DNA from: Planctomycetota bacterium
GTDB taxonomy: Bacteria > Planctomycetota > Planctomycetia > Pirellulales > Pirellulaceae
DNA: 64,000 nucleotides
Assembly: GCA_016872775.1 (NCBI GenBank)
Contig: VGZA01000018.1
Coordinates: 1 to 64,000 of the forward strand
Direction of reading: 5' to 3'
The notes beneath the pieces were generated by a model that saw only the letters and a list, made by a program, of their open reading frames with translations, had not been told where the DNA came from and searched no databases. The stretch's first letter is position 1; every line of letters begins with the position of its first letter. This document shows positions 39,416 to 49,241 of the stretch, in pieces. The translations under genes were made by a program, and so were the position numbers.

Positions 39416-40015
39416 TCACTGGTCGCGCGAAGCCGGGTTCGTACCCAGTTCGCGGTACTGGGGATCGGCCAGGCCAAAAGCGTCGGCGACGCGGTTGAAA
39501 AATGCAAACATCGCCACGACATAGACCGCTTCCGCCAACTGCGCGTCGGTCCACCCGCAGTCCCGCAGGCGCTGAAGGTCTTCGGCCGCAATTTGATGCG
39601 GTTGAAGTGTCAGCTTGCGAGCGAACTCGAGCAGTGCGTGTTCGGCCGAGGCGAGTTGGGCGTGATCGAGGTCCGCTCGGGCTATGGCGTCGACCAGCTG
39701 GGTGTCGGGTTCCTGCAACTGCAGGAAATAGGCATGCGAACCGGTTCAGTAGGGGCAGCGGTTGAGACCCGAAACAAACGTTGCCAGCATTTCCTTGATA
39801 CGTCGCGTCAAATGGCCATCACGAAAATGAACGCGATCGCTGAAGTCGATGACGCAACGCAGGAAATCGGGCCGCTGGCCAAAACATTTGAGTATGTCGG
39901 GGATCAGCCGGCGGCCCGGGTTGCGTTGACGCCATTCGTCATAGACCGCCGCCAGTTCGCCTTCGGCCTCCGATTCCGAATACCATTGCAGGAACGGCCT
40001 GGACGGATCCGGCAT
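39416..40015 (-). CDS. AhpD-like peroxidase-related protein with predicted selenocysteine (CxxU)
   Basis: Carboxymuconolactone-decarboxylase/AhpD-fold protein, 199 codons. The first 89 codons end in GLNRCPY, an in-frame TGA follows at 39748-39746, and the same frame then continues THGS-like as TGSHAYFLQ through LEFARKLTLQPHQIA, GWTDAQLAEAVYVVAMFAFFNRVADAFG to a TGA stop at 39416. Together they align as one family member with active site C87-P-Y-x90-xxx-H94, where position 90 is normally Cys. A perfect stem-loop with a G in the loop follows the TGA. The simplest reading is selenocysteine at residue 90; a nonsense mutation is the alternative. The ATG is one base after the stop of the upstream CRTAC1 gene (TGACATG), so it is coupled into that operon. 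No selA/B/C/D gene is in the window. Confidence 0.75.
39710..39727 (-). promoter_or_regulatory. Candidate bacterial SECIS element
   Basis: On the coding (minus) strand the RNA reads UUCCUGC-AGUU-GCAGGAA: a perfect 7-base stem and a 4-base loop with G at its second place followed by U. The loop begins 25 bases after the TGA, inside the 16-37 base range reported for bacterial SECIS elements. This is what SelB needs to decode UGA as selenocysteine. Confidence 0.65.
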
Positions 40016-40016
40016 G

Positions 40017-41927
40017 TCAATTCGCCTCGCGCGGTTGCTCGATCACGTGCAGCTTGTCCACTTCCAGACCACCCAATTCCTGCTGCTGTCCTCCAGGCCA
40101 GCGGACAATGACTTTGTCGACCGACATCGATTCGCCAAGTCCGAACGTCAAAGGCAGTTCGGAGTGGGAGAGATAGCTGCGGCAGGGATTGACATACCGA
40201 GGCAATATCTGGTCGCCGACGTGGACATCGACGGACGCTCCGATCGCGTCGCGGTTACTGGTAGTGCCGATCAGCTTGATCCGCAGCCAATGACGATTCA
40301 GTGCGGTTTCGTTGCGCAGCAAGCGAGGTACGGATCCACTTCCCGCAATCAACAGGTCGAGGTCACCGTCGTTGTCGATATCGGCAAACGCCGAACCGCG
40401 TCCGACCATGGGCGCGGCAAGGTCGGCGCCGCAATTGGATGGGGGAACGTTTAGAAACTCCGGCTTGCTGCGTGGTCCACAATTCCAGTACAAGCGCGGC
40501 GGCTGTTCGTAGTGCTGCGTCTCCTGCACAGTATTGATGTTGTCGTTCAGGTGCCCGTTGGCCGCCAGCAGGTCGAGTCGACCGTCGAGGTCCACATCGA
40601 CGAAGAGAACGCCGAACGTCAGGTACAATCGGGTCGCGGGCCCCAGGCCGGTGGCGGTGGCGGCATCGAAGAAATGCAGGGGTGACTTCGGCGACATGTA
40701 GAACGCCGTCATTTCGTTAGCGAAATTGCCGATCGCAATCGTCCAACAGCCGTCGTTACGTGGGCGGGCCACGTCGATTCCCATCGCTCCCCGCGCATCG
40801 CCGCGACCGTCATAGGCGATGCCGGCGTCGCTGGCGATCTCCCGGAACTTGCCATTGCCCAGGTTGTGAAACAGAAAATTCTGGACCGTGTCGTTGGCGA
40901 CGACCAGGTCGATAAATCCGTCGTTGTCCAGATCGGCCGGTACGACACCCATCGTCTTGGCCACGGGGACGCCGGTATCGGGATGTCGGACCTGCAAACC
41001 GCTCTGCTCGCTAACGTCAGTGAATCGGGGACCGTCGTTGCGATACAGGTAAGGAAAAGTACCTCGGAACATCAGCGGCGGACCGTACGATCGGGTCTTG
41101 CCGTCCAGCGTCGTATGGATCGAGAGATCGATTTCACGGGACCATTGAATGTAGTTGCCCACGAATAGATCCAGATCGCCGTCGTTATCGAAATCAAACC
41201 AGCAGCAACTTGTTCCCCACTGGTCGTCCGCACCGGCGACTCCCATTTCCTCGGTCACGTCGCGAAAACGGCCGCGTTCATTATGGAACAGATAGTCTTT
41301 TCCGACGGCCGACACGAACAAATCGACGAAACCGTCGTTGTCGTAGTCTCCCACCGCCATGCCCATCCCATACATCGTGAGATTAAGTCCGGCCTGCGCC
41401 GTGACCTCGCTGAAATTGCCTAGTCCATCGTTCGCGAACAATGCCAGGGTCGGCTGTGGATCGACCGGCACGTTGGTCCAGGGCCAATCGCATCCGTTAA
41501 TCAACAGGATATCCGTATCACCATCATTGTCGTAATCCAGAAACGCGCAGCCGCCTCCCATCGTTTCCGGCATCAGCTTTTCACCACGCGCGCCGGTAAA
41601 GTGAGTGAACCGCAGCCCGCTTTCCTCGGTGATATCGGTGAATTTCATTCTAGGGATCTCAATCCGGCTGGTGTCGCGACTGACCGGCGCCTTGAGCTCC
41701 GATTGCTGGGTGATCACCGGGGGGGCGGGTCGCTTGAAATACCAGATCGCGACCGCGACGACCGCGACCAACGTCAGGATCGCGCCCAGGGAACTCCAGA
41801 ACGCGATGCCGATCACCGCATCGTCCTGGCGTTCCTCTTCGGCGTCTCGATTCTGCTCCGAATCAGGTTCGAATTCCTGAGCCGCCGCGGAATGGCGGGT
41901 ACGTTGCGTTTCCGTTTTGCGGCTCAA
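40017..41927 (-). CDS. CRTAC1 family FG-GAP/VCBS and ASPIC/UnbV protein
   Basis: 636 aa. One membrane helix near residues 42-66 (FWSSLGAILTLVAVVAVAIW) anchors a periplasmic body. Seven or so FG-GAP/VCBS repeats are visible by their DYDNDGDTDILL, DYDNDGFVDLFV, DFDNDGDLDLFV, DLDNDGFIDLVV, DVDLDGRLDLLA and DIDNDGDLDLLI calcium-binding loops, followed by the ASPIC/UnbV domain (HWLRIKLIGTTSNRDAIGASVDVHVGD). Such proteins likely form calcium-stabilised propellers at the surface; an enzymatic role is unproven. It overlaps the cytochrome gene upstream by 4 bases and leads into the AhpD-like gene after 1 base. Confidence 0.92.
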   Translation of the reverse strand: MSRKTETQRTRHSAAAQEFEPDSEQNRDAEEERQDDAVIGIAFWSSLGAILTLVAVVAVAIWYFKRPAPPVITQQSELKAPVSRDTSRIEIPRMKFTDITEESGLRFTHFTGARGEKLMPETMGGGCAFLDYDNDGDTDILLINGCDWPWTNVPVDPQPTLALFANDGLGNFSEVTAQAGLNLTMYGMGMAVGDYDNDGFVDLFVSAVGKDYLFHNERGRFRDVTEEMGVAGADDQWGTSCCWFDFDNDGDLDLFVGNYIQWSREIDLSIHTTLDGKTRSYGPPLMFRGTFPYLYRNDGPRFTDVSEQSGLQVRHPDTGVPVAKTMGVVPADLDNDGFIDLVVANDTVQNFLFHNLGNGKFREIASDAGIAYDGRGDARGAMGIDVARPRNDGCWTIAIGNFANEMTAFYMSPKSPLHFFDAATATGLGPATRLYLTFGVLFVDVDLDGRLDLLAANGHLNDNINTVQETQHYEQPPRLYWNCGPRSKPEFLNVPPSNCGADLAAPMVGRGSAFADIDNDGDLDLLIAGSGSVPRLLRNETALNRHWLRIKLIGTTSNRDAIGASVDVHVGDQILPRYVNPCRSYLSHSELPLTFGLGESMSVDKVIVRWPGGQQQELGGLEVDKLHVIEQPREAN

Positions 41928-44809
41928 TCTCCACCTCCGACAGGTGCTGGTTTACGGTCATCTTCCGGATTCTGCGGCAGTCCCGGCGCTCCCGGACGGT
42001 GCAGCGGATAAATCACTAACGGCTCCGCGGCCACGTTCGCGGCCGGGTACTTCTGTCGCGCCAAGGCGATCGCGCGATCCCGCGCATTATCGTCCGGTTT
42101 GTACCGTTCGTGTAACTCACGGTGCCGGGCGCTCTGCTGCGAATCGTCCAATTCACGATAGAGCAGGTGTAGATTGTAATGTGCCGTGACATTTTCCGAA
42201 TCGATTTTCAGCGTGCGCTGAAACTGTTCCGCCGCCTGCCGCAACAAGACTTCCCGCTGTCCACGTTCGTCGTCCCCTGAAAACTGTTTGGCCCGCTCGA
42301 ACAGAGTGATTCCGAGTTCATTGATCACTTCGTAGTCCAGGCTGAAGTCGAATTTGCGTTTGCCCATTTCGGCGGTGTGATCTTCGAGCACAGCGCGGAA
42401 ATTCGCTTCGGCCGCTTCCAAGTCTCCGGTCTGACGATTCAGCAGTCCGCTGAGCCAGGAGATGGTCCAGGGCGGCGCGGCCGGGTCCCGAAACGAAGCG
42501 GCGCGGCGGATGGCGTCTGCGGCCTTGTCGACCTCACCCTCAATGTTCAAAATCCGCGCGAGATTCAAGGGACCGTCGTACCGTCCCAATTGCTCGACCC
42601 GTTCAAACGCCGCGGCCGCCTGGCGGATTTCACCCTTCGGTCCACCCTGGCCCTCGAGGAACAACCCGATTCCGTAGTCATTCCAGCGTTGCCACTCGGG
42701 TATTTCCGGCGTCGGGTTATCGACCGAATGATTCAACCCTTCGATCGGGAACAGAACGCGGTCCGCAGCCAGGGTAGTGATCGGCAGGCGATTGACATAC
42801 TCCCGGTCGGGTTCCGCGTCGCGAATCGGCTGCTTGCGCTCGGCTGCCGACTTGTTCACGAACTGCATGTACTCCTGGTCGAACTTCCGGTACTGAAGTT
42901 TGACCTCCACCGTGAGCGGTTCGGAGAGATCCTCGGGAACGCGCAGATCGAGATGGGCGACCTGGGCCGCTCCCGGTGGTATCTGATGGTTATACAGCGG
43001 CACGAAAATATCTTGCGGGTTGCGGCGGTTGATGCGGTTACCGTCGCGGTCGAGCATGAACACATTGACAAAGTGCGTCCAGGGATCGACCGCTCCTCGC
43101 TCGTCCATTCCACCCAATCGGCCAATGACCCGCTCGCCCGCCTTGACGGTGACGTCCAGCCAGAGTTCGTTGGAATCGACGGTGCCTTGCGTCAGGGGAT
43201 GGCCGACTTTCAACGTCCGGATGACCGCCTCGATCAGATAGCGTGCCCCGGGTCGCAGCGCCGGAACGTGGGGCCGCAACGGCGCGGTCAATGTGCCGTC
43301 GATCGTACCGCCTTCTTTGACCCCCAGGATATCGAGCCGCACAACGTTCTTGAGAAATTCCTGATGGCGTCGGACCGTGGCCTCGTCATTCAACAGGTAA
43401 GGGATTCCGGTGTTGGCGGCGGGGAATAGATGGTCGTGGACGGTCAGTTTTCCGGTACCATCAAAGTCTTTGGCGCCGAAATCGTTCGATTCAGCCAGGG
43501 GCATATGGCACTGCGAGCAATTCGTCTTCGCCTGTTCCGGGTAATAAAAGCTGCGTGCGCCGTGCCCTGAGACACCGCTCAACAAATACGAGTCGTAGTG
43601 ATTCTGGCCGCGGAGGAACTCCTTGTAATGATTCAATTCCTTCGGCAGGGAAACCTTGTGGCAAGTGGAGCAGAACTCGGCCGATTTGTGAAAATCCTTC
43701 AGAAATGTCCTTTTGTGGAAAGCCGGTTTGGCCTTGATCATCTGGTTGTTAATGTACTGCAGCAGCGGGTTGGTGCTGGTCGCGAAAGGATAATGTTCAG
43801 GGTGTTCGAGCGTGTAGTCGCCATTGCCGACCGTCGAATTCACGGAGGTCATCGCGTGACAGACCGTGCAGGTGATGCCGGCCTTTGCGGTGACGTCGTT
43901 TTCAACGTCGTACTCCGGGTTGTCAAACCCGCCGGTCAGGAATGGCACCGGGTCGTGGCAACCCGCGCACCACCGCGATGCCTTCACGTTCCCGTCACGT
44001 TTCAGGGCGACCTGCCGCGTTTCCAGAACGCTGGCGAGATACGCCGGATTGTTGAACGAGCTGAACCGGTGGGCGCTGTGGAACCAGCCACTATAGACAT
44101 CTTCGTGGCACTTCTTGCAGTAGTCATCCATCATCAGTACGTCGGCAGGGACGAAATTCCCGTTGGACGTGCGCGCCAGCGACGGTTCGAAGTACTTCAT
44201 GCCCTCGGCGGAGCGGCGGGCGTTGCTGAGCCGCGGGTCATGCATCTTCATCGCGATCATGCCGGCGACGACCAGCCCGACGATGGCCGCGAACGACACC
44301 CCCAATCGCCACCGAATGCGCTGACCGGCAAGCCGGTGCAGCCAGTACAGCCAGACCGCCAAAAACGGGCTGATTACATGCGCCCAATAGACCAGGCTGC
44401 GCATCCAGTCGACCTGCAGTTGGAAACCTCCGAATTGGACCAACCCCAGGCCGGACAGCAGCACCACGATCGAAATCACGAAAAGCGCATAGCCGATCCG
44501 AATCGCTCGCTTGTTCTTGCGTTGGCGCGACGTGATCAGGTGAATCGTGCCGAACAGGACAAACGGCGTTATCAGCAACAGGCCGAGTCCCAGATGAAAC
44601 AGAAACATAACTTGATAAAACTGGTCCTGGAGCGATTGGCGGGACAGCCATTCCGCGGCGGTGATGCCGCCCAGGTACGCGGAGTTGGCGACCAGCATCG
44701 CGACTAGCGCGAAGACGAGGTAAAGAAGAATCCGCAGGCGGGGTCCGACAGCCGGTGTATACGTTCGGGCTCGTCCGATCCGCGCGGTCGACGGGGACGT
44801 AGAGTTCAT
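41924..44809 (-). CDS. Membrane multiheme cytochrome c with TPR domain (961 aa)
   Basis: N-terminal half-dozen hydrophobic helices between residues 26 and 188 (e.g. ILLYLVFALVAMLVA, FLFHLGLGLLLITPFVLFG), then a cytochrome c554-like domain with five CxxCH haem sites: C231-H235, C281-H285, C314-H318, C380-H384 and C431-H435. Residues about 520-700 form a beta-rich part and the C-terminus is tetratricopeptide repeats (LAAAEANFRAVLEDH-type helices). It should sit in the inner membrane with hemes outside, moving electrons to or from a surface partner; direction is unknown. The 4-base overlap with the CRTAC1 gene and the next gene's 1-base gap place it in an operon with the selenoprotein. Confidence 0.88.
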   Translation of the reverse strand: MNSTSPSTARIGRARTYTPAVGPRLRILLYLVFALVAMLVANSAYLGGITAAEWLSRQSLQDQFYQVMFLFHLGLGLLLITPFVLFGTIHLITSRQRKNKRAIRIGYALFVISIVVLLSGLGLVQFGGFQLQVDWMRSLVYWAHVISPFLAVWLYWLHRLAGQRIRWRLGVSFAAIVGLVVAGMIAMKMHDPRLSNARRSAEGMKYFEPSLARTSNGNFVPADVLMMDDYCKKCHEDVYSGWFHSAHRFSSFNNPAYLASVLETRQVALKRDGNVKASRWCAGCHDPVPFLTGGFDNPEYDVENDVTAKAGITCTVCHAMTSVNSTVGNGDYTLEHPEHYPFATSTNPLLQYINNQMIKAKPAFHKRTFLKDFHKSAEFCSTCHKVSLPKELNHYKEFLRGQNHYDSYLLSGVSGHGARSFYYPEQAKTNCSQCHMPLAESNDFGAKDFDGTGKLTVHDHLFPAANTGIPYLLNDEATVRRHQEFLKNVVRLDILGVKEGGTIDGTLTAPLRPHVPALRPGARYLIEAVIRTLKVGHPLTQGTVDSNELWLDVTVKAGERVIGRLGGMDERGAVDPWTHFVNVFMLDRDGNRINRRNPQDIFVPLYNHQIPPGAAQVAHLDLRVPEDLSEPLTVEVKLQYRKFDQEYMQFVNKSAAERKQPIRDAEPDREYVNRLPITTLAADRVLFPIEGLNHSVDNPTPEIPEWQRWNDYGIGLFLEGQGGPKGEIRQAAAAFERVEQLGRYDGPLNLARILNIEGEVDKAADAIRRAASFRDPAAPPWTISWLSGLLNRQTGDLEAAEANFRAVLEDHTAEMGKRKFDFSLDYEVINELGITLFERAKQFSGDDERGQREVLLRQAAEQFQRTLKIDSENVTAHYNLHLLYRELDDSQQSARHRELHERYKPDDNARDRAIALARQKYPAANVAAEPLVIYPLHRPGAPGLPQNPEDDRKPAPVGGGD

Positions 44810-45494: not shown

Positions 45495-48400
45495 CTAGGG
45501 GTCAACAGAATCCTGAAAACCCCGCGCATTGTCGCCCGCCGCGCCGTCGAATCGACGCCAGAATTGGGCTGGCGACTGTTGTCGAGTCTGAAAACGCTTG
45601 AGGTAATCGAGATATTCGGGGCTCTTCAAAAAATCGCTGTCTCCATCGGGATAATCGCGCATCGCGGCAAACGGCATCGGTTCTACGGTCTGTCCGGTAA
45701 CAGTGTTCAATAGGCAGTCTTTCTCCCAGCCGGTGTTGTGCAGCAGAAAATCGCGGGTCCAGCCCGGCGGCGGGTCCGGCAGGGCTTCAAACTCCAGCGC
45801 GATTTCGTCTCCCGCTCCAAAAACGGCCAGTCGATCGTCGGTGCGCTCGAGCAGTTCGCGGACGTCGCCGTAGCGTGTAAATCGGCCTCGCATCGGCGGC
45901 CAAAGCGGTCCGGGATGGACTCGATGGTAATTGAACGCTTCTGGACTGTCGGGCGACTGCTCCAAAGGTTCGCAGAATCCGCGAAACCGCAGATCGGCCC
46001 GCAACATGCGCGCCGTTGCGACTCGCGTCTCTACCGGCTCATCGTCCACCGTAAAGAAAATTTCATCCCATCGCAAAGCTGCCGAAGTGCGAATTCGAAC
46101 CCGGTAGTCGTCGGCACGGAATGCCGTGGAAAGATCGACAGCGATCGTTTTCGTCTTGCCGCTGGGGAACCCCATGAACGGTATCGACTCCACCCAATCA
46201 CCCTGCTCGTCAGGAACCCAGACCGACGGCGGCACGGGTGCTCGCAGCGTGGGATCTTGAGCGATCTGAACATTCAAGTTGCAGTCCGTGGGGTAGATCC
46301 AGCCGGTAAGAAATAATGTGATTCGCGAAGGCGACGACAACGGTCCGAAATCCAATTCAATGTAGTGCTCCTCCGCCAGTCCTTGGCGGAACGTGCGATC
46401 GAATGGACGACAATAGACCCCGTCCTTTGCCCGAATCAGCGGCAGGATATCGCGCCCCTTGGAATCGGTTGCGTTGACGGGTGTGCGACGCTGAACCACG
46501 GTGTGGATTCGATACTCGGAAATCGACGGCGGTCCGACCTTTTCATTGGAGTAGATTTCCGTCCCTTCGGGGTGATCGACCGCGATCAACTCGACCTGGT
46601 CGAAATAACTGGCCTCCCAGAGTTCTTCCGTGATCCGCAGTCGATACTGCCCGTCTTGAGGCCGCAATTGCCGACCTTCGATTTTCAGGTACTCCCAGGG
46701 GCGATCCGGGATCATTGCGCCGCCGCCCGCCTGAAGACCAAGCGGCGCGTTCCAAAGCAGGTCGGTGCAGAAGACAAACCGGTCTCCATCCCAGGTGTAC
46801 AGGAAAGGACAGGAGGTCAGCAGCTTCTGCTGCTCTTGCACCAGTTGATTTGCGTTCGGATGCACAACCGACTGCGGGACGCCGTTCGGGAAGATCACAC
46901 GCGCGATGGCCGACGGGCTGGCCGTACCAAGTCCGAAATGGGTCAACGGCCGAGTTACAACCTGGGCCAGGTAGCGATTTGGTTCCCGAATTTCGATCGT
47001 GGAACCGATTGCCAGGTGGTTAACGCGCCCGACTTTTTCTTCGTCGCGCCCCTGCAACCGAATCGCAATCCAGGCGCGCTGGTTGCTCCCGCGGTTTTCC
47101 AACAGCGAGACACCCTTGCCGGTCACGACCACCAGATCAAGGTCGCCGTCGTCGTCGAGGTCGCCGAAATCGACATTTTCTATTTCCGATTCTATTTCCG
47201 AATCCAGATCGATACGCAATGGGGCGCCGAATCCGGTGGCGGTCTCCGCGCCGCGGAATACCAGCACCTGCTTTCCCTGCCAGCCGACGATATCCAGCGT
47301 GCCGTCGTTGTCGATATCAAGGATCGACTCGCCACGCAACGCCGTGGGCTCGCGGTCCAAACTCTTGAACGGCGAGATCACGGGGGCCCGAGTCACCGTG
47401 CGCAGCAGTTGAAAACCGTTTGAGTTGCTGGCGATCAGGTCCCAGGAGACGTTGCCATCGCTTTCCAACAACGCGATGCGTTCGGCCTCTTTCCAGCCCT
47501 CCCAATCGGTCGCACGCCAGCGGAAATGGCCGTGCCGCAAGTTTTCCAATACACCTCGGCAGGCCGGCGTGCTCCCCGCTACGAGAATGTCGACATCCAC
47601 ATCCCGATCCCAGTCGACCGCCACGAGCGATCCGACCCGCCCCTCGTAATTCGGCAATTCGGACCAATGCGAAATATCCTCGAATCGGAGTTCGCCGCGA
47701 TTGGACCAAAGCCTCAGTCCGCGTTGGGTAGCCAAGACCACGTCCAGGTCGCCATCATGATCGAGATCGGCCAAGACTGCCTGGTGTGTGCTGCCGATTT
47801 CGGCAACCTCAGCAGCGGGCGTTACGAGCTCCAATTTGCGCGTCTGCGAGTCCGGGTCGAACTGGTTGCGCAAGACGCGAAATCCTGTGGATCCATAGAT
47901 AAGGAGATCCGGATCCGCGATTTGCAATTGGGCTGCCGCATCTGAATCGGGTTTTGGCGGGCCGCCAGCCGCATCGACCTTGCTCAACATCGCTCGATCG
48001 TCGCGGTCAAGATCCGCCAGCAGCATTCCGGCAGCTTCGAAGTCCAGATCGGCAGTACAAAGCTCCACCCAATGGCCGTCAGTCCCACGCGTCCAGACCA
48101 GCACGCGATGCCGCTGCAGCAGGACCAGATCCAACCGCATGTCCTGATTCATGTCAATCGACTGCACCGCCACCAGCGGATCTCCATCCACGGAAATTTG
48201 GCTCATCTCGGGTATGAATTGCAGATCGGGTGCGTTCGCGGTTTCGGCCTTTCGCGGCTCCGCCGCTCGCTGGACAGAAACCAGATGGGGAACAACGAAC
48301 TCGAGCGGATTCGGTGCAATTCGTCGGGAGTCCGCCCGGCAGATCTCGGTGGGACGAATGTTGTTTGCAAGACGCGTTGCGGTGATTTGGAACTCTTCCG

Positions 48401-49241
48401 ATTGGTAATCGCTGAGTTGCTGTTCGATTTCGGTCAAAAGCCGTCGGATATTGGCCGCGGGAGTGGGACCTTCCAGATGAGGTTGGAGGGTGCGAGCGAT
48501 CGCTGGCACGACATCGCGGACCCGCGCGTCGCCCATCCGCGCCAGCGCTACCATGAAATCGAGTTGAGCAAACACATTGTCGGGGGCGAGCGTAAATGCG
48601 CGTTCGATTGCATCCATTGCCTCCGGGGTCATCGGCCCGTCCAGGGGCGGATCGATCGTACGAAAACGTTCGTACGGGTAAACGGGATTCTGGGGATCAA
48701 AGGCTTCCGCGCGCTGGAACGCCCCCGCGACCTCCGATGCGACATCCAAACTCGGATCGAACTCGTTCAGTTTCAGCAGATACCTGGCTTGAAGGTAATG
48801 ACCGATCGCCGAATCGCTTCGCAGTCGCAGGAACGCGCCGATGGCCGTTTCGGCATCCGCGAGTGATTCTTCCGTCGGCGTATCCGCTTCCAGTCCCAAC
48901 ATGGCGCAAACCGCCAGATTCTGGATTGCCGCGGGCTCGTCAGGGAGCTGAACCAACAACGACTGAAACGATTCTCGCGCCTTCGCCAGTTCACCATTCT
49001 CGAGCTGCGCAACGGCCGTCAGATGCAGCGCTTCCAAGGCGTCGAAATCCGCCGCCGGCAACGCCCGTGCAACTCCCTCCCGGCCGATCGGAACCTGCTG
49101 CGAATGATCGGACCGCCAAACCAGATAACCCACAACGATGATCACCGTGGCCAGCAACGCCAGAATCAATCCCAGCCGGCTTTTCCCCGTTCGGACCGAT
49201 CGTGACCCGGCAGTTGGGGCGTGCATACGATGCCTCTCCAT
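45495..49241 (-). CDS. Large TPR / FG-GAP / UnbV membrane-anchored protein (1248 aa)
   Basis: One N-terminal membrane helix (LILALLATVIIVVGYLVW, about 25-42) anchors a periplasmic chain. Order: TPR-like helices (about 60-320), FG-GAP/VCBS repeats (DQDMRLD-, DLDHDGDLDVVLA, DWDRDVDVDILVA, DIDNDGTLDIVGW and DLDDDGDLDLVVV loops), an ASPIC/UnbV domain (WIAIRLQGRDEEKVGRVNHL), then a 450-residue C-terminal part rich in beta strands (CPFLYTWDGDRFVFCTDL, SYFDQVELIAVDHPEG) that I cannot assign. First gene of the minus-strand cluster, so a promoter probably lies in 49242-49494. Likely a surface or periplasmic scaffold. Confidence 0.88.
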   Translation of the reverse strand: MERHRMHAPTAGSRSVRTGKSRLGLILALLATVIIVVGYLVWRSDHSQQVPIGREGVARALPAADFDALEALHLTAVAQLENGELAKARESFQSLLVQLPDEPAAIQNLAVCAMLGLEADTPTEESLADAETAIGAFLRLRSDSAIGHYLQARYLLKLNEFDPSLDVASEVAGAFQRAEAFDPQNPVYPYERFRTIDPPLDGPMTPEAMDAIERAFTLAPDNVFAQLDFMVALARMGDARVRDVVPAIARTLQPHLEGPTPAANIRRLLTEIEQQLSDYQSEEFQITATRLANNIRPTEICRADSRRIAPNPLEFVVPHLVSVQRAAEPRKAETANAPDLQFIPEMSQISVDGDPLVAVQSIDMNQDMRLDLVLLQRHRVLVWTRGTDGHWVELCTADLDFEAAGMLLADLDRDDRAMLSKVDAAGGPPKPDSDAAAQLQIADPDLLIYGSTGFRVLRNQFDPDSQTRKLELVTPAAEVAEIGSTHQAVLADLDHDGDLDVVLATQRGLRLWSNRGELRFEDISHWSELPNYEGRVGSLVAVDWDRDVDVDILVAGSTPACRGVLENLRHGHFRWRATDWEGWKEAERIALLESDGNVSWDLIASNSNGFQLLRTVTRAPVISPFKSLDREPTALRGESILDIDNDGTLDIVGWQGKQVLVFRGAETATGFGAPLRIDLDSEIESEIENVDFGDLDDDGDLDLVVVTGKGVSLLENRGSNQRAWIAIRLQGRDEEKVGRVNHLAIGSTIEIREPNRYLAQVVTRPLTHFGLGTASPSAIARVIFPNGVPQSVVHPNANQLVQEQQKLLTSCPFLYTWDGDRFVFCTDLLWNAPLGLQAGGGAMIPDRPWEYLKIEGRQLRPQDGQYRLRITEELWEASYFDQVELIAVDHPEGTEIYSNEKVGPPSISEYRIHTVVQRRTPVNATDSKGRDILPLIRAKDGVYCRPFDRTFRQGLAEEHYIELDFGPLSSPSRITLFLTGWIYPTDCNLNVQIAQDPTLRAPVPPSVWVPDEQGDWVESIPFMGFPSGKTKTIAVDLSTAFRADDYRVRIRTSAALRWDEIFFTVDDEPVETRVATARMLRADLRFRGFCEPLEQSPDSPEAFNYHRVHPGPLWPPMRGRFTRYGDVRELLERTDDRLAVFGAGDEIALEFEALPDPPPGWTRDFLLHNTGWEKDCLLNTVTGQTVEPMPFAAMRDYPDGDSDFLKSPEYLDYLKRFQTRQQSPAQFWRRFDGAAGDNARGFQDSVDP

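Follow-up and report, generated by a model that had tools for sequence, protein, structure and literature searches.

In the 64,000-nucleotide stretch of DNA analyzed here (the window), a gene seemingly broken by an internal stop codon almost certainly yields an AhpD-type peroxidase, the stop being read as selenocysteine. Taken as a whole, the explanation in which we place very high confidence is that the gene codes for a probably cytoplasmic AhpD-fold thiol/selenol oxidoreductase of the TIGR01926 CxxU kind, with selenocysteine at residue 90 and an insertion that would depend on SelB and on a hairpin located behind the TGA codon. An apparent pseudogene becomes, on this account, a likely full-length selenoenzyme, and any annotation stopping at the TGA would lose the second half of the enzyme, including part of its active site.

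On the reverse strand, positions 40015..39416 hold 199 codons in one frame followed by a final TGA, the sole internal TGA being codon 90 (Table 1). Re-reading this interval confirmed what an earlier note on this DNA had described, namely a single frame that crosses the TGA without frameshift and joins to a 199-residue chain. The site reads C87-P-Y-[TGA90]-T-G-S-H94, an AhpD-type CxxC-x3-H motif in which the TGA stands, as that note had also recognized, for the second cysteine before the conserved histidine. Standard translation splits the gene into two ORFs of 89 and 100 residues, which is what would be seen if it were a pseudogene, i.e., a Cys-type AhpD gene interrupted by a nonsense mutation or by a sequencing error.

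Table 1. Features of the Sec-AhpD gene and of its neighbors, in window coordinates.
Feature	Position	Strand	Remarks
Predicted selenoprotein gene, TIGR01926-type AhpD-like (CMD domain) peroxidase-related enzyme	39416..40015	-	199 residues, Sec 90, final stop TGA
In-frame TGA, predicted selenocysteine 90, last position of CxxU	39746..39748	-	Same residue in 55/55 TGA homologues read (this gene counted)
Cys87, putative resolving partner in CxxU	39755..39757	-	Invariant in A3 (40 sequences)
His94 of CxxUxxxH	39734..39736	-	Invariant in A3 (40 sequences)
Glu75, probable equivalent of the proton-relay Glu of AhpD	39791..39793	-	Invariant in A3 (40 sequences)
Bacterial SECIS hairpin, 7-bp stem, AGUU loop (39720-39717), loop 25 nt behind TGA	39710..39727	-	Rules, covariation, likeness to the FwdB hairpin
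FG-GAP repeat protein with UnbV_ASPIC domain	40017..41927	-	1-nt gap between its stop codon and the start codon of Sec-AhpD
Cytochrome c554-like multihaem protein with TPR repeats	41924..44809	-	4-nt overlap with next gene
Large FG-GAP repeat protein	45495..49241	-	Upstream, 685 nt before the cytochrome gene

Homologues were collected with the window gene as query and a cut-off of E 1e-20 or better. Among 199 genomes of the host's family (the window's own counted), 33 have a homologue, of which 32 carry the in-frame TGA and one (G113) does not. Across 392 genomes of the phylum, a homologue was found in 49, at 51 places, 46 with TGA (two of them also with TAG) and five without any stop; the host genome (G000) and G113 belong to both sets. 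The motif was read in 59 loci, a set without three of the family matches and without the phylum matches that gave no locus. TGA occupies exactly this residue in 55 of them, Cys in three (L034, L059 and L060) and Gly in one; outside this set, the fifth stop-free place of the phylum, in G246, reads CDFC by eye. The cysteine that the earlier note expected at position 90 in homologues was hence encountered in L034, L059 and L060. The TGA homologues are 31-61% identical to the window protein (itself excluded), and in an alignment of 40 of the 59 homologues (A3, with Sec written as C), Glu75, Cys87, Tyr89, residue 90 and His94 are invariant.

Within the phylum, TGA forms outnumber Cys forms among close homologues (E 1e-20), which is the less expected situation; distant Cys relatives are missing from these counts because of the cut-off applied with this gene as query. 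In this group of probable planctomycetes, homologues this close have selenocysteine more often than cysteine in their AhpD-like active site, the Cys forms belonging to lineages in which no selA was found. Nine pairs of relatives were compared behind the TGA. In eight of them, most differences fall on the third codon position, while L030/L032 has 7, 0 and 6 differences at codon positions 1, 2 and 3; as judged from these sequences, the downstream half is under protein-level selection. Relatives with a normal stop or without the downstream half, which the earlier note would have counted against a selenoprotein, are not what was found: the half is kept, and apart from one copy with Gly the site is either TGA or Cys. 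The Gly copy (L062, G244:C173), whose genome contains selA as well as a second copy with a TGA, may represent a decayed copy, a sequencing error or a changed function. A scan of genome contigs gave one relative, a Sec-AhpD in a record titled as Acidobacteria (QIBC01000031.1, L055), which falls in the tree among sequences of the window's phylum and would be either a transfer or a misbinned contig.

The earlier note had named selA, selB, selC and selD as the genes to look for, and the absence of selB or selC as evidence against its reading. All four were found in the same genome, a 5.85-Mb assembly of 99.91% completeness whose contig 18 opens with the 64-kb window. This genome gives 99 matches to PSD1, a domain typical of planctomycetes, versus 0 in 14 control genomes, which points to a planctomycete host. 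The whole SelB protein scores 360.1 bits (cut-off 242.25) and its gene is directly followed by selA (538.3 bits), while the tRNA-Sec gene (selC, anticodon TCA, 66.9 bits) sits on the same contig, ~12.8 kb behind selA; ARAGORN detected no tRNA within the 64-kb window and none in the 4-kb selB locus. A stand-alone selD is present elsewhere in the genome (381 bits; L013:1393-2445 (-), G000:C28), where it adjoins a frame resembling, by eye, a catalase-peroxidase. In a protein of 793 residues (L126:1707-4088 (-), G000:C13), a pyridine nucleotide-disulfide oxidoreductase domain is joined to another SelD domain (261.5 bits).

A second selenoprotein candidate of this genome is an FwdB gene (TIGR03129, 498.9 bits, cut-off 327.8; frame 2010-3350 of L131, G000:C34), with a TGA in its UHGP motif (L131:2997-2999 (-)). 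Its hairpin has the AGUU loop seen in the AhpD gene, a stem of 7 bp as well and an equal spacing of 25 nt, and a Sec form of FwdB is reported from another planctomycete in the available text of PMC4807772.

Reassignment of TGA to a sense codon (e.g., Trp), or a selenium-free readthrough, would equally account for the open frame, which stays open under any code with a sense TGA. It is nonetheless extremely improbable, as 1) the gene itself and its upstream neighbor both terminate in TGA, 2) TGA-free homologues have Cys (three of the four read, the fourth having Gly) and never Trp, and 3) table-11 frames of the neighboring genes give full-length family matches.

Selenocysteine insertion is further supported by the hairpin located behind the TGA. 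Its stem, TTCCTGC/GCAGGAA (39727-39710), encloses an AGTT loop and starts 18 nt past the TGA; the perfect 7-base stem, the AGUU loop and the 25-base distance from TGA to loop reported earlier all proved correct. As given in the available text of PMC13188914, bacterial SECIS elements have a loop of 3-9 nt, a stem of 4-16 bp, a G within the first two loop bases, a distance of 16-37 nt from the UGA and an energy of -7.5 kcal/mol or lower. The window hairpin conforms to these rules, with a loop of 4, a stem of 7, a loop beginning with AG, a distance of 25 nt and an energy of -9.6 kcal/mol. The rules are passed by 41 of the 55 TGA homologues, including 23 of the 25 in the window gene's clade, and by none of the three Cys homologues; among the 14 TGA homologues failing the strict rules, the two from the window's clade do so by energy alone. 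The Gly copy L062, which gave no motif match, stands outside these counts.

Among the 1580 TGA trinucleotides of the window (both strands), 85 pass the SECIS rules, 31 have a SECIS-type hairpin that equals or exceeds this one in stability, and 25, this one counted, have a perfect 7-bp Watson-Crick stem in a comparable range. The hairpin alone is therefore a 2-5% event; adding the exact site, the open frame downstream and the conservation in relatives, the whole lies far beyond chance, and the earlier view that a chance nonsense mutation is unlikely is well founded. A pseudogene is very improbable, since the TGA occupies one residue in all 55 TGA homologues despite identities of 31-61%, the downstream half is selected at the protein level, the hairpin is conserved and the genome contains the Sec machinery. 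The selenoprotein reading draws its support from these machinery genes, from the TGA at the same residue in homologues and from the SECIS rules.

Conservation of the stem was analyzed in 54 of the 55 TGA rows (A2, 50 distinct sequences) and in 24 of the 25 rows of the window's clade (A1), L048, which runs into Ns, being left out of both alignments. Across the 54 sequences, 82.7% of the stem cells are paired versus 64.8% in shuffles, 56 cells are altered on both stem sides versus 29.3, and the covariation score is 0.461 versus 0.211, each value being matched by 0 of 500 shuffles. The number of pairs altered on both sides and the number of further pair types are unexceptional (142 and 26 of 500 shuffles as high, respectively). 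The true stem register exceeds all slid registers on every measure except pairs changed on both sides, for which there is one tie. In the window's clade alone, 93.9% of the cells are paired versus 92.7% in shuffles, one pair is altered on both sides, a value reached by 104 of 500 shuffles, and pair types show no excess (500 of 500 as high); covariation is weak there because the stem hardly varies. The wider covariation could partly be a by-product of amino-acid changes. Among 26 rows, the 23 with Leu over the loop all use the codon TTG, versus 115 of 451 in the rest of these genes. Rfam, searched at gathering thresholds over the whole window, returned no match, which speaks neither for nor against the hairpin.

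In the host's family, selA is present in 29 of the 32 TGA-form genomes versus 77 of the 166 genomes devoid of the gene (Fisher p 1.7e-6, kinship ignored); beyond the family, the TGA-form genomes in which it was sought are G262 and G244. None of the four Cys-form genomes (G113, G453, G486 and G246) has selA, and in G113 there is neither a selB match over the cut-off nor a tRNA-Sec. In three TGA-form genomes, all from a single genus (G002, G101 and G168), neither selA (at 1e-60) nor a selB above the cut-off was found; tRNA-Sec was found in G002, which is 99% complete, and in neither G101 nor G168. Since selA, selB and selC sit within ~12.3 kb in another genome of this genus (G068), missing contigs could explain the absent genes and are the likely reason why these three genomes appear to be without selA. 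In a tree of 55 of the 59 rows (the partial L047, L048, L054 and L082 dropped), the three Cys forms make up one clade (100/100) within an 11-row group containing eight Sec forms (89/85). The Cys clade stands on the tree side holding 23 Sec forms, in a bootstrap that had not settled. This fits a replacement of Sec by Cys. Relatives without selA apparently have Cys where Sec would be, and a hairpin outside the SECIS rules.

Regarding its family, the protein matches Pfam CMD (43.2 bits) and, with Sec written as C, belongs to NCBIfam TIGR01926 (119.2 bits, cut-off 81.8), with which it shares the CxxC/U-x3-H site and the AhpD-type helical fold. It does not belong to NF041238 (AhpD_rel_CFYUT (seleno)protein), a Sec-bearing family with a related AhpD domain, its 59.2 bits lying below the cut-off of 175. 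The AhpD fold proposed earlier is backed by a confident structure model (mean pLDDT 91.9) and by fold comparison, with matches to 6k40, 2oyo, 2pfx, 3c1l and 2prr at Z 22.4-23.5. The first of these (Z 23.5) is an AhpD from D. radiodurans that we take to be the DR_1765 protein of PMC8945050. Together with 2oyo from D. geothermalis, it shares the fold and the CxxC-type site at ~30% identity, but has Cys where the window protein has Sec. As no signal peptide is visible by eye, the protein is probably cytoplasmic.

As reported in the available text of PMC8945050, a D. radiodurans mutant of an AhpD-like protein is sensitive to H2O2 and is partly rescued by the wild type, whereas variants of its two cysteines give a far weaker rescue. 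On the basis of these rescue data and of AhpD chemistry, we infer that the window protein may act as a peroxidase or disulfide reductase in which Sec90 is the attacking residue. In such a mechanism, SelB with Sec-tRNA(UCA) would recognize the hairpin, located 25 nt behind the UGA, and Sec would be put in at residue 90 rather than termination occurring, an insertion deduced from the machinery genes and the signal that are both observed. By analogy with AhpD-like enzymes of the Cys type, the Sec90 selenolate, activated by Glu75 and His94, could then reduce a peroxide or a disulfide. Cys87 would resolve Sec90 to a selenenylsulfide and some thiol donor would regenerate the enzyme. In this scheme, Glu75 would take the part of the proton-relay Glu of AhpD.

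The selenoprotein may instead have a non-peroxidase job, reducing disulfides or removing halogens reductively in the manner of the AhpD-fold debrominase Bmp8. Bmp8 is among the fold neighbors (Z 17.6, 16% identity) and a deiodinase-like gene lies upstream of AhpD in L094 and L118. We regard such a function as unlikely, the five nearest solved relatives being named AhpD, peroxidase-related or antioxidant defence proteins and the deiodinase-like neighbor occurring in two of 38 loci, with none in this window.

For the peroxidase-type selenoenzyme that we favor, it is well supported that the window gene adds a member to an already catalogued AhpD-like selenoprotein family, the kind itself not being new. 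The earlier note had stated that CxxU AhpD-like proteins exist, and TIGR01926 itself is catalogued: Table 1 of a 2026 review (PMC13188914) lists an AhpD-like protein of this model, with a CxxU motif (MCB9421940.1), as predicted with high confidence. This entry shares the family model, the CxxU motif and the single Sec with the window protein, a likeness of MCB9421940.1 that is by description. The same accession also appears under COG2128 YciW in PMC9312934. Earlier AhpD-like CxxU families or AhpD-like selenoproteins are described in the available texts of PMC1088965, PMC2398784, PMC1794560 and PMC9312934. Among them, the GOS selenoproteins AhpD-like 1 (COG2128) and AhpD-like 2 (pfam02627) have a CxxU motif like the window protein (PMC2398784), and the Sargasso Sea AhpD-like and CMD families have both CxxU and a hairpin behind the UGA, as here (PMC1088965); both sets come from marine environmental reads. 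Planctomycetes are not mentioned in the main texts of PMC13188914 and PMC9312934, nor is AhpD in the main text of PMC4807772, whose supplementary selenoprotein candidates of two planctomycetes may include an AhpD-like one. Among the papers retrieved on AhpD-like/CMD selenoproteins and planctomycetes, no title names the enzyme of this clade.

In the window, Sec-AhpD is the last gene of a tight run formed by the cytochrome, UnbV_ASPIC and Sec-AhpD genes, with a 4-nt overlap followed by a 1-nt gap. A scan for sigma-70 promoters and terminators gave fewer sites than in shuffles and has no bearing on an operon. A cytochrome homologue stands beside AhpD in four of 38 loci versus none of 34 other loci, and UnbV_ASPIC in six of 38 (one a short piece) versus none of 34, a statistically weak link given that the comparison loci cover fewer bases (148 kb versus 452 kb). 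Also recurring near AhpD in the 38 loci are FG-GAP (four, counted with a 501-residue piece of the 1248-residue large protein as query), RnfD-like (two) and deiodinase-like (two) genes; in G021 (L087), the region upstream of AhpD contains a homologue of the large FG-GAP protein. The link of Sec-AhpD to its cytochrome, UnbV and FG-GAP neighbors is suggestive only. The UnbV protein has an N-terminal hydrophobic stretch (by eye) and would be outside the cytoplasm, so direct contact with Sec-AhpD is not implied. It is rather improbable, although conceivable, that Sec-AhpD constitutes the selenol part of an electron-transfer module that recurs in this phylum in reshuffled form (cytochrome c554-like/TPR, FG-GAP, UnbV_ASPIC, RnfD-like or deiodinase-like), which it would shield from peroxides or feed with electrons, possibly including reductive dehalogenation.

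The deiodinase-family proteins encoded upstream of the AhpD gene (L094:4757-6043 and L118:4456-5697) are found in one Sec-form and one Cys-form genome. The L094 protein matches NF038285 and has EF hands, the L118 protein is its 56%-identical homologue, and in L094/L118 a Cys is seen by eye at the presumed Sec site.
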